36,583 nucleotides of DNA. It comes from Pseudomonadota bacterium. Lineage in GTDB: Bacteria > Pseudomonadota > Gammaproteobacteria > Pseudomonadales > Moraxellaceae. Shown here piece after piece: positions 2,003 to 4,771 of the stretch (the first letter of the stretch is position 1; each line of letters starts with the position of its first letter). The position numbers and the translations under genes are program-made. Under the pieces are notes generated by a model. It did not search any database. It worked only from the letters and a program-made list of their open reading frames with translations, and was not told the origin of the DNA. The stretch covers positions 1 through 36,583 of the forward strand of contig JAJZHM010000008.1 of assembly GCA_021804485.1 (NCBI GenBank), in the 5' to 3' direction.

Positions 2003-2407
2003 ATGAAAAAGATGAGTCAGCGTTTGTGCGTTCAGTGCCTGATTTTGGCATTGATGGTTGTCTGGATTCCGGCACGGGCCGATTTTGTAGCCAGTCAGCA
2101 ACTGGTTCATCCCGATTCCGACTCTGCACAGCGTGCGCATGAACTTGCCGTGGTTGAGACATTCATGCAACGTTCAGAGGTTCGTCAGCAGTTACAGGAA
2201 TGGGGGGTTGATCCTGTCGATGCAGCGAACCGCGTGCAGGGGCTGAGTGATGCCGAAGTGCATCAGCTCTATGAGAAGGCGGGGCAGCAGCCTGCCGGGG
2301 GTATGGATATTCTGGGAACCCTGATCTTTTTGTTTGTGCTGCTGCTCGTCACTGATATTTTGGGATTGACCAAAGTCTTTCCATTTACACGCTCGATCCG
2401 TCGCTGA
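2003..2407 (+). CDS. PA2779-family small exported protein with C-terminal membrane anchor
   Basis: A 134-aa protein resembling the Pseudomonas PA2779 family, whose function is unknown to me. The ATG at 2003 is chosen because GGAGGAG (1991-1997) sits 5 nt upstream; two in-frame GTG codons at 1997 and 2000 overlap that site. An N-terminal signal sequence ends near PARA; a soluble, helical, charged region follows (residues 28-92); then PAGG, one membrane helix (about 97-118) and a basic end (RSIRR). The next gene, a cysteine peptidase, starts within this stop codon (TGATG), so the two are translationally coupled. The order Gly-Gly, helix, basic tail looks like a processing or sorting signal, and C39-type peptidases classically cut after double glycine. 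The peptidase-substrate relation is my inference. Confidence 0.82.
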   Translation: MKKMSQRLCVQCLILALMVVWIPARADFVASQQLVHPDSDSAQRAHELAVVETFMQRSEVRQQLQEWGVDPVDAANRVQGLSDAEVHQLYEKAGQQPAGGMDILGTLIFLFVLLLVTDILGLTKVFPFTRSIRR

Positions 2408-3450
2408 TGCGTTATCTGGGGCTTGCTGCCCTGTGTGTTGCCCTGACCGGCTGTGTTCTGCATCCGGTCCGGGCTCCAGCTTCTTTCTGGGGAGCCCGTA
2501 CGATCCAGCATCCCTTTGGGATGATCAACAATGATGGCGATCAGTGTGGCCCAGCGGCTTTGGCTGGGGTGTTGCAGAATATGGGAGCACCGGTTCAGGC
2601 CAGTGTCTTGCGTGCTTCAATGTATCTGCCAGCCCGGTCAGGAAGTCTTGGTATTGAGCTTACTGCCAGTGCCCGTCGGCAGGGGATGCTTGTTCTGCCT
2701 GTGTCTAAACAGCAGCAAGGGCTTGTGCGGGCATTACAGCGCGGTGCCAATCCGATTGCGCTGGTCAATCTCTCCCTGCCTTGGGTACCGCGCTGGCACT
2801 TTGTGGTGGTCACCGGAGTAGATCCAGTGCATCAGGAATGGCTGGTTCAGGTGGGTCGAGGCCATGACCCGGAGCGTTGGCCGGATCGGGTTTTGCAGCA
2901 TGTTTGGCGACGCTCCGGCTATTGGGCGATTGCTGTTTTTGATCCGCAGCATTTGCCTCATGACCTACCTCTTGACACTGGTTTGGAGGCAGCGCTGGCG
3001 CTGGAGCTTGTACAGCCCGGAAAGGCGGCTGCCGTTTATGCCCAGTTCATGGTAGCGCATCCCGATGATTCGCGGTTGCCGGATCTGCTGGCCAATGCCT
3101 TGCGGGAGGCGGGACGGATGACTGATGCGGGCTACTGGTATCGCCAGCAAGTGGTGCGCTTTCCGAAGCAATGGCAGGGCTGGAATGACTGGCTGACGTG
3201 GTTGATGACACAGGGGCAGGGTTGTCTGCCTGCAGGACAGCAGGCGGTGCAACATGCCCTGATTTTTCAGCAGACAGCGAATGCAGATGTGCTGCGGGCG
3301 ACAGTGCAGTCTTGGAAGGAACAGTGCGGGCATGATGATGCCGGGCCCGCCGTTGGTTCTGAATGGCGCGATGCTCCGCAAGAGGGGGTTGCAGAGGGGC
3401 ATAATGCTGAACGGCTTCATTCATCTCGGGCAAAACCAGCGCCACCGTGA
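2407..3450 (+). CDS. PA2778-family C39-like cysteine peptidase lipoprotein with TPR-like tail
   Basis: A 347-aa predicted lipoprotein: signal with lipobox LTGC (Cys16), then a papain-like C39-type domain with catalytic Cys47 in GDQCGPAAL and His131 in PRWHFVVVTG. From about residue 190 it is helical and TPR-like (ALELVQPGKAAAVYAQF and following). It should be anchored in the periplasm and act on peptide or protein substrates. It starts on the stop codon of the PA2779-family gene (1-nt overlap), so the two products probably work together. The last 35-40 residues (from about 309) look unstructured, and the final 404 bp overlap, in antisense, the end of the DedA-family gene. The family call follows from the motifs and the gene pair; substrate is not known. 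Confidence 0.85.
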   Translation: MRYLGLAALCVALTGCVLHPVRAPASFWGARTIQHPFGMINNDGDQCGPAALAGVLQNMGAPVQASVLRASMYLPARSGSLGIELTASARRQGMLVLPVSKQQQGLVRALQRGANPIALVNLSLPWVPRWHFVVVTGVDPVHQEWLVQVGRGHDPERWPDRVLQHVWRRSGYWAIAVFDPQHLPHDLPLDTGLEAALALELVQPGKAAAVYAQFMVAHPDDSRLPDLLANALREAGRMTDAGYWYRQQVVRFPKQWQGWNDWLTWLMTQGQGCLPAGQQAVQHALIFQQTANADVLRATVQSWKEQCGHDDAGPAVGSEWRDAPQEGVAEGHNAERLHSSRAKPAPP

Positions 3451-4771
3451 TCAGACTGAGCGCAGCGAGCACAACGATACTCATCTCTCGGGCTGTCAGG
3501 GTTTGGCTGCAGAACCGGTAGTAAAAATAGCGCAGAATGGCTAGAAGCCCAATACCAAGCAACAACCCTCCAAGAGCCGCAGAAAAGGGGTGATGGTGCA
3601 GGTAAAGTGATGAACACAGGGTCAGCATGATCAGTGTGGTGACAAAGGCCAGTGGACGGGCATGTTGGGCAGGGCCAAGAGCCCGGGCCATAACGATGCC
3701 GATGAATCCCCAGATCATCACGGTTGTCAGGGATTGGGGGCTGGGATAGTCGATCATGCTGCAGGCGCAGAACGGACCGAAGTTCTGGATGAGCCAGGGA
3801 AGGACCCACAAGGCAAGCAAGCCGTTTACGGTCCCCATCAGTGCCGTGCCATAAGCACCACGCCCAACCCAGTAGAAAATGAGCAATCCTGAAAAGGTTA
3901 ACATCGGCTTATGGTAGGAGAGCACCGACAGGGTCACAAATAGATAGTCGAGGAAGGGCTGTTTGAGGCTGTCGAGGCCGTCGAGCATACGCTGGTCAAG
4001 GTAGGTAAACGATGGGCTGTCGAGGTGCAGTCCAATCAGATAAAACAACAGCAGAGCCAGAAAAGCCAGAGGTAGTGGGCCGAGTTGATCGTATCCGGGT
4101 GTGCGTCGCAAGAGCAGATGGTAGTCAGGAATCAGGTTGCCACAACGGTTCAATATGGGTAGGAAGAGCCGGTGCAAGAACAGGATGGTTTTAATGACAA
4201 AGGCGATTGAGATGATCAGTCCCAGTAAAAACCAAAGCTGATCCTTGCCGGGCATGAGGGGGTCATCAAAAGCAGAGCCAATGAGATAGCCCGGAAATAT
4301 ATGCACAGGCGCCCAGGCCAGCGCCGACAGGAAATTCATGGCGATGAACCGCCAGGTGGACATGTTCAGAATGCCGGCACAGAGTGGAACAAAGGTTCGT
4401 AGTGGACCAATGAAGCGGCCAATGATGATGCTTTTCCCCCCGTGGCGTTCGAAAAAGGCTTCGCCCTGCTCGAGCCACTGGGGATGACTGCGAAAAGGCC
4501 ACATCAGTTCCATGCGCTTCTGGAAATGTTTGCCAAGAAAAAAGCTGATGCCATCACCAAACATAGCTCCGGCCATGCCGGATATCATGACGAGCAAAAA
4601 ACTGAGGTCATCCCGCCCGGCAATGAGGGTTAGGCCGAACATTAGGGCAATGCCCGGCACAATAATGCCGGCGACGGCAAGTGCATCAAGGGTGGCAACC
4701 GAAAAGATGAACAGTGGTACGACACTGGCGTGAACATTAAGCCAGCTGTAAAGGCTTTGCCAGTTGCTCAT
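3047..4771 (-). CDS. DedA-family membrane protein with degenerate PAP2 domain and overprinted tail
   Basis: 574 aa. Residues 1-200 are a DedA/VTT domain (membrane-embedded, proposed lipid scramblase or transporter family) with the signature GRFIGPLRTFVPLCAG (about 118-133) and a FGDG motif. Residues 230-445 form a second membrane block resembling PAP2/LssY-type fusions, but its catalytic motifs are altered: PSGH reads PSPQ (343-346), and the SRxxxxxHxxxD motif reads SSLYLHHHPFSA (387-398), losing the Arg and Asp. Phosphatase activity is therefore unlikely. Residues 451-574 are Pro/Ser/His/Ala-rich, without membrane segments, and lie wholly antisense to the peptidase gene; they look like readthrough of a lost stop codon. 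The start at 4771 has AGGA about 8 nt upstream. The DyP gene lies 132 nt upstream on the same strand. The DedA call is firm; the real C-terminus is uncertain. Confidence 0.85.
   Translation of the reverse strand: MSNWQSLYSWLNVHASVVPLFIFSVATLDALAVAGIIVPGIALMFGLTLIAGRDDLSFLLVMISGMAGAMFGDGISFFLGKHFQKRMELMWPFRSHPQWLEQGEAFFERHGGKSIIIGRFIGPLRTFVPLCAGILNMSTWRFIAMNFLSALAWAPVHIFPGYLIGSAFDDPLMPGKDQLWFLLGLIISIAFVIKTILFLHRLFLPILNRCGNLIPDYHLLLRRTPGYDQLGPLPLAFLALLLFYLIGLHLDSPSFTYLDQRMLDGLDSLKQPFLDYLFVTLSVLSYHKPMLTFSGLLIFYWVGRGAYGTALMGTVNGLLALWVLPWLIQNFGPFCACSMIDYPSPQSLTTVMIWGFIGIVMARALGPAQHARPLAFVTTLIMLTLCSSLYLHHHPFSAALGGLLLGIGLLAILRYFYYRFCSQTLTAREMSIVVLAALSLITVALVLPEMNEAVQHYAPLQPPLAEHRAIQNQRRARHHHARTVPSKTALSPAAHLHSLSAEKSGHVAPPAVLQADNPAPVSSTTSASHSSPAIASESAPLAGDTSSPHQSSVPPPARHWPADPATANHRDALP

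Follow-up and report, generated by a model that had tools for sequence, protein, structure and literature searches.

A candidate double-glycine processing pair formed by a predicted lipid-anchored C39-like peptidase (PA2778 family) and a PA2779-family protein

The peptidases of C39 exporters, such as ComA, LahT, PCAT1, and CvaB, are described as cutting their substrates after GG, GA, or GS, and in the substrates of LahT an Ala is almost always found at position -3 (PMC6363468; PMC10885120). A C39 protease that is active in the periplasm has been reported in Pseudomonas: FapD, which is needed for amyloid secretion and whose Cys is essential, and its authors remark that periplasmic C39 peptidases are yet to be characterised (PMC5557850). 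In a separate group of systems – GlyGly-CTERM/rhombosortase, PEP-CTERM/exosortase, and LPXTG/sortase – the target carries a motif, then a helix, then the end of the protein, and enzyme and target share genomes. For GlyGly-CTERM, single targets can sit beside the enzyme (PMC3237569).

Here we describe a two-gene locus that resembles all of these systems in part. It lies in a 36,583-nucleotide stretch of DNA from a Moraxellaceae genome (hereafter, the window), and it consists of a PA2779-family gene followed by a PA2778-family gene (Table 1). Like the exporter peptidases, PA2778 combines a predicted C39 fold with Cys, His, and, in most members, Gln; like their substrates, PA2779 carries GG, GA, or GS before the proposed cut, with Ala at -3. 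Unlike the exporter peptidases, PA2778 is predicted to be exported and lipid-anchored, includes a TPR domain and no ABC transporter domains, and shows no Asp at the canonical position; unlike the exporter substrates, PA2779 has its motif near the C-terminus, in front of a membrane helix, and does not follow the -12, -8, -7 spacing. The likeness to FapD, drawn from its published description, is that of a periplasmic C39-type cysteine protease (by prediction in the case of PA2778) encoded with its presumed substrates, whereas FapD acts in amyloid secretion on a target that is still unclear in PMC5557850, and PA2778 includes a TPR domain and stands in an arrangement of two genes. The pair shares with the sortase-type systems the order of motif, helix, and protein end, as well as the presence of enzyme and target in the same genomes. 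It differs from GlyGly-CTERM/rhombosortase in that PA2778 is a predicted cysteine peptidase with a soluble domain and that the putative targets seen here, the PA2779 proteins, form one homologous family.

Both families are already catalogued, as NCBIfam NF033919 (PA2779_fam) and NF033920 (C39_PA2778_fam) and as Pfam DUF6627, models that name the families and to which the window proteins belong. The PA2779 protein scores 109.8 bits with NF033919 (cut-off 40) and 88.9 with DUF6627 (cut-off 27), and the PA2778 protein 169.8 bits with NF033920 (cut-off 150). The two NCBIfam numbers are consecutive, and the curators may have regarded the families as a pair. Our search, which covered few subscription journals, found no paper naming PA2779 together with PA2778, and the accessible parts of the Pseudomonas literature that it returned assign no function to PA2779, PA2778, or DUF6627. 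What would be new is that double-glycine processing of the C39 kind takes place in the periplasm, and at a membrane anchor near the C-terminus.

Table 1. Features of the PA2779/PA2778 locus, in window coordinates.
Feature	Position	Strand	Basis
PA2779-family gene (DUF6627), 134 aa, stop included	2003..2407	+	ORF and profile matches
Signal peptide, probably cleaved after Ala26 (...PARA/D)	2003..2080	+	Ala in 151/158 aligned members; cleavage inferred
Helical domain, predicted periplasmic, residues 37-95, four helices in model	2111..2287	+	Model (pLDDT 78.0, pTM 0.45); alignment
PAGG motif (residues 97-100), with Gly100 preceding the proposed cut	2291..2302	+	Sequence, alignment
C-terminal hydrophobic helix and tail MDILGTLIFLFVLLLVTDILGLTKVFPFTRSIRR	2303..2404	+	Kept in the majority of paired copies; diverged in 10/12 unpaired copies
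Overlapping stop/start codons TGATG	2405..2409	+	Sequence
PA2778-family cysteine peptidase gene, predicted lipoprotein, 347 aa, stop included	2407..3450	+	ORF and profile matches
Lipobox Cys16 (LTGC16)	2452..2454	+	C in 146/147, one gap; next residue never Asp (0/147)
C39-like peptidase domain, residues 34-180	2506..2946	+	Predicted model; structure and sequence matches
Catalytic Cys47, by homology	2545..2547	+	Alignment; 146/147, one gap
Catalytic His131, by homology	2797..2799	+	Alignment; 144/147, three gaps
TPR domain, residues 185-309	2959..3333	+	Predicted model; structure matches

The PA2779-family frame starts with ATG at 2003, with GTG at 1997 as an alternative start. Its TGA stop (2405-2407) and the ATG of the PA2778 gene (2407-2409) have one base in common, which confirms the original prediction of a TGATG stop/start shared by both genes. 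This arrangement recurs among 195 distinct pairs: the PA2778-frame start codon that lies closest to the PA2779 stop overlaps it by four bases in 58 and by one base in 19. The source genome holds a second PA2779/PA2778 pair on contig C166, where the peptidase match is confined to profile positions 1-179 and its open frame ends no more than 2 bases from the locus edge. On the minus strand (window 3047-4771), a frame of 574 aa that contains a VTT (DedA-like) domain lies tail-to-tail with the PA2778 gene, and the two frames overlap by 404 bases.

In the PA2779 protein, the signal peptide is followed by a variable linker and then by the helical domain, whose model had a best match in the PDB of only E 3.6. 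After the hydrophobic helix the window protein ends TKVFPFTRSIRR, in agreement with the earlier description of an exported 134-aa protein with PAGG, a hydrophobic helix, and an RSIRR end. Among 158 aligned PA2779 proteins (three further distinct matches out of 161, with 21.7, 14.8, and 6.3 bits, were left out), the motif has Pro in 153 and its first Gly in 149, and its last position is G in 98, A in 38, and S in 19; Ala precedes the two-residue site in 157. Part of this set was collected with sequence from the window protein itself: loci L011-L090 were found through its peptide patterns, one of which, GLTKVFPF, contributed to the finding of 80 of the 158 members. Residues of the tail are well conserved in the aligned set (T in 137, D in 141, G in 146, T in 149, and F in 145 of the 158), but in loci L011-L090 this conservation is biased because this pattern was among those used. 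A fairer set is provided by the 77 members that a profile search, and not the peptide patterns, brought up, though NF033919 itself spans the motif. In these, the site reads GG in 36, GS in 17, GA in 17, AG in 2, AS in 2, GQ in 2, and GE in 1. Among the regions compared, conservation is highest in the four-residue motif, at 3.72 bits (helical domain, 2.24; helix, 2.49). Gly-Gly itself is therefore not invariant, but 70 of the 77 sites fall within the GG/GA/GS range that C39 peptidases accept. The refuting condition named in the original proposal, a Gly-Gly that is not conserved in the family, thus holds only in the literal sense. The leader pattern of C39 substrates, Leu-12, Glu-8, and Leu-7, was absent at those spacings when the alignment was inspected by eye.

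The PA2778 model (pLDDT 81.5, pTM 0.79) has the ComA peptidase as its best Foldseek match (E 1.5e-4), and TPR domains match its residues 170-294. In the VIA comparison, it aligned with ComA over 134 residues (Z 17.9, rmsd 2.1), and similar scores were obtained with PeiR (Z 18.1), a Bacillus C39-like protein (Z 17.5), PCAT1 (Z 17.1), and LahT bound to its leader (Z 16.7). At the sequence level, the PA2778 profile matched the Bacillus C39-like protein (2.3e-7), LahT (E 4.7e-4), and ComA (0.037), and PF13529 and PF03412 were found in 38/39 and 35/39 members, respectively, at E<=0.1; taken alone, the window protein stays under the PF03412 cut-off, with 18.3 of 22 bits. The PA2778 domain is predicted to adopt the C39 fold, a likeness that by itself shows no function. 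The original prediction of a lipoprotein of C39-like fold with intact Cys47 and His131 is upheld by both the sequence and the predicted structure. In the 347 residues, only the C39 and TPR domains were found, and ABC transporter domains are absent.

Of 147 PA2778 proteins, 117 have Ala directly after the lipid Cys. In E. coli, lipoproteins in which a residue other than Asp follows the lipid Cys are predicted to go to the outer membrane. Because Ala or another non-Asp residue stands at this position, PA2778 would probably be sorted to the outer membrane, on the far side of the periplasm from the site where PA2779 would be cut.

With regard to the other catalytic positions, the oxyanion Gln is present in 138 of the 147 aligned proteins; the window copy has Asn, at a place where two extra residues make the alignment uncertain, and in CvaB the change Q26N is reported to have a minimal effect (PMC3335142). 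The same source describes the C39 catalytic Asp of CvaB, Asp121, as essential, since D121A, S, and N all lose secretion. In the sequence alignment of the 147 PA2778 proteins, nothing corresponds to this canonical Asp (D-P) at its expected position: residues 147-149 read LHS in 66, LRS in 56, and are other or gapped in 25. Another acid, such as Asp139 (132/147), could serve as the third catalytic residue.

The missing Asp would also fit a reading in which PA2778 binds PA2779 without cutting it, as a C39-like chaperone or tether, and in which the Gly-Gly serves to break the helix where it meets the membrane. Such a role has precedent, as cut-inactive C39-like domains are described as tethering substrates in type I exporters (PMC6363468), and a related short family has no Cys in the 19 copies read (19/19). 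However, Cys47 and His131 are intact in all 196 adjacent peptidases that cover both positions, and a helix break would not explain why, among the 77 profile-found members, the second-last motif residue is G in 73 and the last is G, S, or A in 74. We consider binding without cleavage unlikely. The 196 copies were drawn from 229 distinct PA2778-like frames. Eight adjacent rows with peptidases that were broken or truncated at a contig end (L068, L089, L179, three pieces of L192, and two of L206) were left out, as were L180 (contig end) and L005, L007, and L010 (TPR match only).

Away from PA2779, the picture is different: 20 of the 21 non-adjacent C39-like homologues with upstream sequence available have lost the Cys. 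Nineteen of these are short, have no TPR, and carry one genus label (g239), and the other is a full-length copy in G171 (L191). The 19 short proteins are probably one old family, and therefore the Cys losses may be two independent events and not twenty. The short C39-like lipoprotein, mostly 225-250 aa long, has a match in 127 of the 149 genomes of this genus. The copies read (L255-L260, L278-L289, and L301) comprise 16 of 128 short genus-sample matches and three phylum-sample copies with the same genus label; in addition to the loss of Cys, Arg or Gln replaces His in 18 of them. As judged from its residues, this lipoprotein is a conserved pseudo-peptidase. Its identification as FapD was rejected, since the Cys is lost and the neighbours of L255/L256, inspected by eye, are unlike the fap operon. 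The exception among the 21 is L261, in which Cys and His are intact and which adjoins a 291-aa, weakly PA2779-like protein (19.9 bits) without Gly-Gly before its helix. This is a distant arrangement (1132-2004 and 2162-3157), with a lipoprotein in which TPR (by eye) precedes C39, and a caspase-like protein (by eye) is also found beside it.

The two families mark the same genomes. Near relatives are encoded in 198 stretches of a public genome collection, and three samples, which partly overlap, were compared. In the class sample (274 genomes), PA2779 proteins occur in a quarter of the genomes (68) and PA2778 in 65, all of them inside the 68; the remaining three comprise two contig-end matches and one sub-cut-off match. 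Pairing by chance is excluded by this distribution (Fisher p 5.7e-60). In the phylum sample (398 genomes), the 40 genomes in which PA2779 exceeds its cut-off are also the 40 with full-length PA2778, by a criterion set in this analysis. Short or weak PA2778-like matches alone occur in another seven genomes, of which one, G536, passes the curated cut-off with a short Cys-less homologue and has no PA2779. In the genus sample (149 genomes), 18 genomes have full-length PA2778, and these together with G791 are the ones in which PA2779 exceeds its cut-off; the short PA2778-like proteins are the ones found in 127 genomes. When the curated cut-off alone is applied to this sample, 10 of 28 genomes pass by a short Cys-less homologue, and only G791 among these has PA2779. 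The expectation that the family would always co-occur with PA2778-type peptidases is thus borne out near-perfectly for full-length PA2778 (65/68, 40/40, and 18/19 in the three samples).

At the level of the locus, the peptidase lies downstream of PA2779, on the same strand and within 700 bases, in 151 of 161 distinct rows; the other ten comprise three false matches, one contig end, one pair with an intervening gene, and five unpaired copies. The intervening gene (L196 in G268, 2389-3369) encodes a 327-aa membrane protein that is TerC-like by eye. In G202 (L192), a broken PA2778 gene adjoins a PA2779 gene with a PAAS motif and an unusual tail, possibly a decay of the pair; G061, of the same genus, also has PAAS, but its peptidase is unbroken. 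When flanking ORFs were clustered in 120 loci, the two members of the pair were found in 81 and 74, and no other cluster in more than 26. Mean-field couplings computed for 196 pairs (effective 152) gave top inter-protein values of 1.88 and 1.46, versus 0.90-1.41 for the best of six re-pairings, an excess that may merely reflect shared ancestry, which re-pairing also destroys.

Twelve PA2779 copies are unpaired, five in the class sample and seven in the genus sample, and 11 of them are in genomes with a pair elsewhere. The exception is G791, in which a full-length peptidase was not found. In the genus sample, an unpaired copy is present in 6 of 18 pair-bearing genomes versus 1 of 131 others (Fisher 8.8e-6). 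The seven genus-sample copies (L293-L299) lie near TrpS-like or ScpA-like genes (named by eye), and these similar neighbours suggest one ancestral place. The site reads PAGG in nine unpaired copies, PAAG in two, and TAGA in one, so that PA[GA]G is kept in 11 of the 12, whereas a plain hydrophobic end replaces the usual tail in ten (L158 and L163 keep it) and a basic residue after the helix is missing in ten (it is present in L158 and L184). Eleven genomes, representing ten unpaired copies and one tandem copy (G039), were compared with their paired copies: identity was 33-82% in the domain and, in the tail, 20-29% in ten genomes and 56% in G099. A plain tail is also seen in at least one paired copy, L185. 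Because most unpaired tails diverge and lack the basic end, the kept features are the site and a hydrophobic end, and not a tripartite sorting signal.

This bears directly on the suggested relation to sortases, exosortases, or rhombosortases. The motif and the hydrophobic end of the proposed tripartite tail are retained, but the basic C-terminal residue, present in the window copy, is absent after the helix in 10 of 12 unpaired copies, unlike in sortase-type signals. In the source genome, which is 94% complete, rhombosortase TIGR03902 gave 0 matches at E<=0.001 (the control rings below the cut-off in 14/14), and exosortase PF09721 likewise gave 0 at this threshold (the control rings in 1/14). 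On both grounds, the link to these enzymes is not supported. Cleavage of the tail by another protease, a rhomboid, with PA2778 acting elsewhere, would fit the features described for GlyGly-CTERM and rhomboid substrates, namely small residues ahead of a helix whose N-terminal side faces outward (PMC3237569). We regard it as very unlikely, since the source genome has no rhombosortase match at that threshold, no GlyGly-CTERM model appears among 25 of the 37 families listed for 57 members, and the basic end is missing in 10 of 12 unpaired copies.

The tail itself could also be the product. PA2778 would then cut PA2779 to yield a hydrophobic C-terminal peptide of 30-35 residues acting in or on membranes, with the N-terminal part as a long leader of the double-glycine type. 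The helix and the stretch that follows are well conserved in the aligned members (with the GLTKVFPF bias in 80 of the 158), and a common domain with differing tails resembles the shared leaders and diverse core peptides known for LahA. However, a plain hydrophobic stretch takes the place of the tail in 10 of 12 unpaired copies, apart from the pair itself no neighbour is common to more than 26 of the 120 loci, and expression appears to be constitutive, which would be unusual for a toxin or a signal; we find this reading quite unlikely. P. stutzeri DSM4166 carries a PA2779-family gene, PSTAA_2481. In P. stutzeri, RNA-seq was used to select 26 candidates for strong, constitutive promoters; a PA2779-family gene is one of them, and the measured strength of its promoter is reported to equal that of the reference promoter (PMC10155442), which suggests a household role in the envelope. 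Of 157 regions upstream of PA2779, 10 contained a loosely defined sigma-70 pattern (mean of 0.74 in shuffles) and 0 an AlgU-type promoter (mean of 0.57 and maximum of 4 in shuffles); with the latter result, a stress regulon is not claimed. A transposon insertion located between the PA2779 and PA2780 genes of P. aeruginosa is described as giving small colonies with increased PA2780 expression, and was followed up through PA2780 (PMC3985676). The purpose of the pair is probably a constitutive envelope function.

We therefore return to the reading that we prefer, in which PA2778 cuts PA2779 after PAG[G/A/S] and frees the helical periplasmic domain, and which we consider reasonably likely. It builds on what was observed – the families, the predicted C39 and TPR folds, the motif, the co-occurrence, and the conservation of Cys and His – and from this we infer the export and topology of PA2779, the cleavage itself and its site, and which fragment would be active. 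PA2779, as the dedicated pro-protein of PA2778, would leave the cytoplasm through Sec and stay anchored in the inner membrane through its C-terminal helix, so that the P-A-G-[G/A/S] motif faces the periplasm. PA2778, as a lipid-anchored periplasmic double-glycine (C39-type) cysteine peptidase whose TPR domain may bind the substrate, would cut after the motif and release the helical N-terminal domain into the periplasm. The unpaired copies may be cut in trans in the same genomes. Several points count against cleavage: the missing canonical Asp, the Asn in place of the oxyanion Gln in the window copy, the possible outer-membrane location of PA2778, the absent leader spacing, the imperfect co-occurrence when the curated cut-off is used alone, GQ/GE in three and AG/AS in four of the 77 sites, the PA2779 gene kept beside a broken peptidase in G202, the unpaired copy without a full-length peptidase found in G791, and the usual tail in L158 and L163. 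In the original proposal of a dedicated processing pair, the core is independently supported by the co-occurrence, the GG/GA/GS range, the intact Cys and His, and the motif kept in unpaired copies, but the sortase link found no support and nothing was found for re-anchoring of the freed protein. A broader reading, for which the case is evenly poised, is that of a C-terminal release system, absent from the literature covered, in which a lipid-anchored periplasmic C39-TPR peptidase recognises PAG[G/A/S] ahead of a membrane helix and frees members of a single family of small helical proteins, including copies encoded elsewhere in the genome.

With a defined candidate cut site and a partner, the question can be tested with one blot. 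If the proposal is true, double-glycine processing would extend from a cytoplasmic export machine to the membrane release of periplasmic proteins, and the two genes would offer an uncomplicated model system for periplasmic C39 peptidases.
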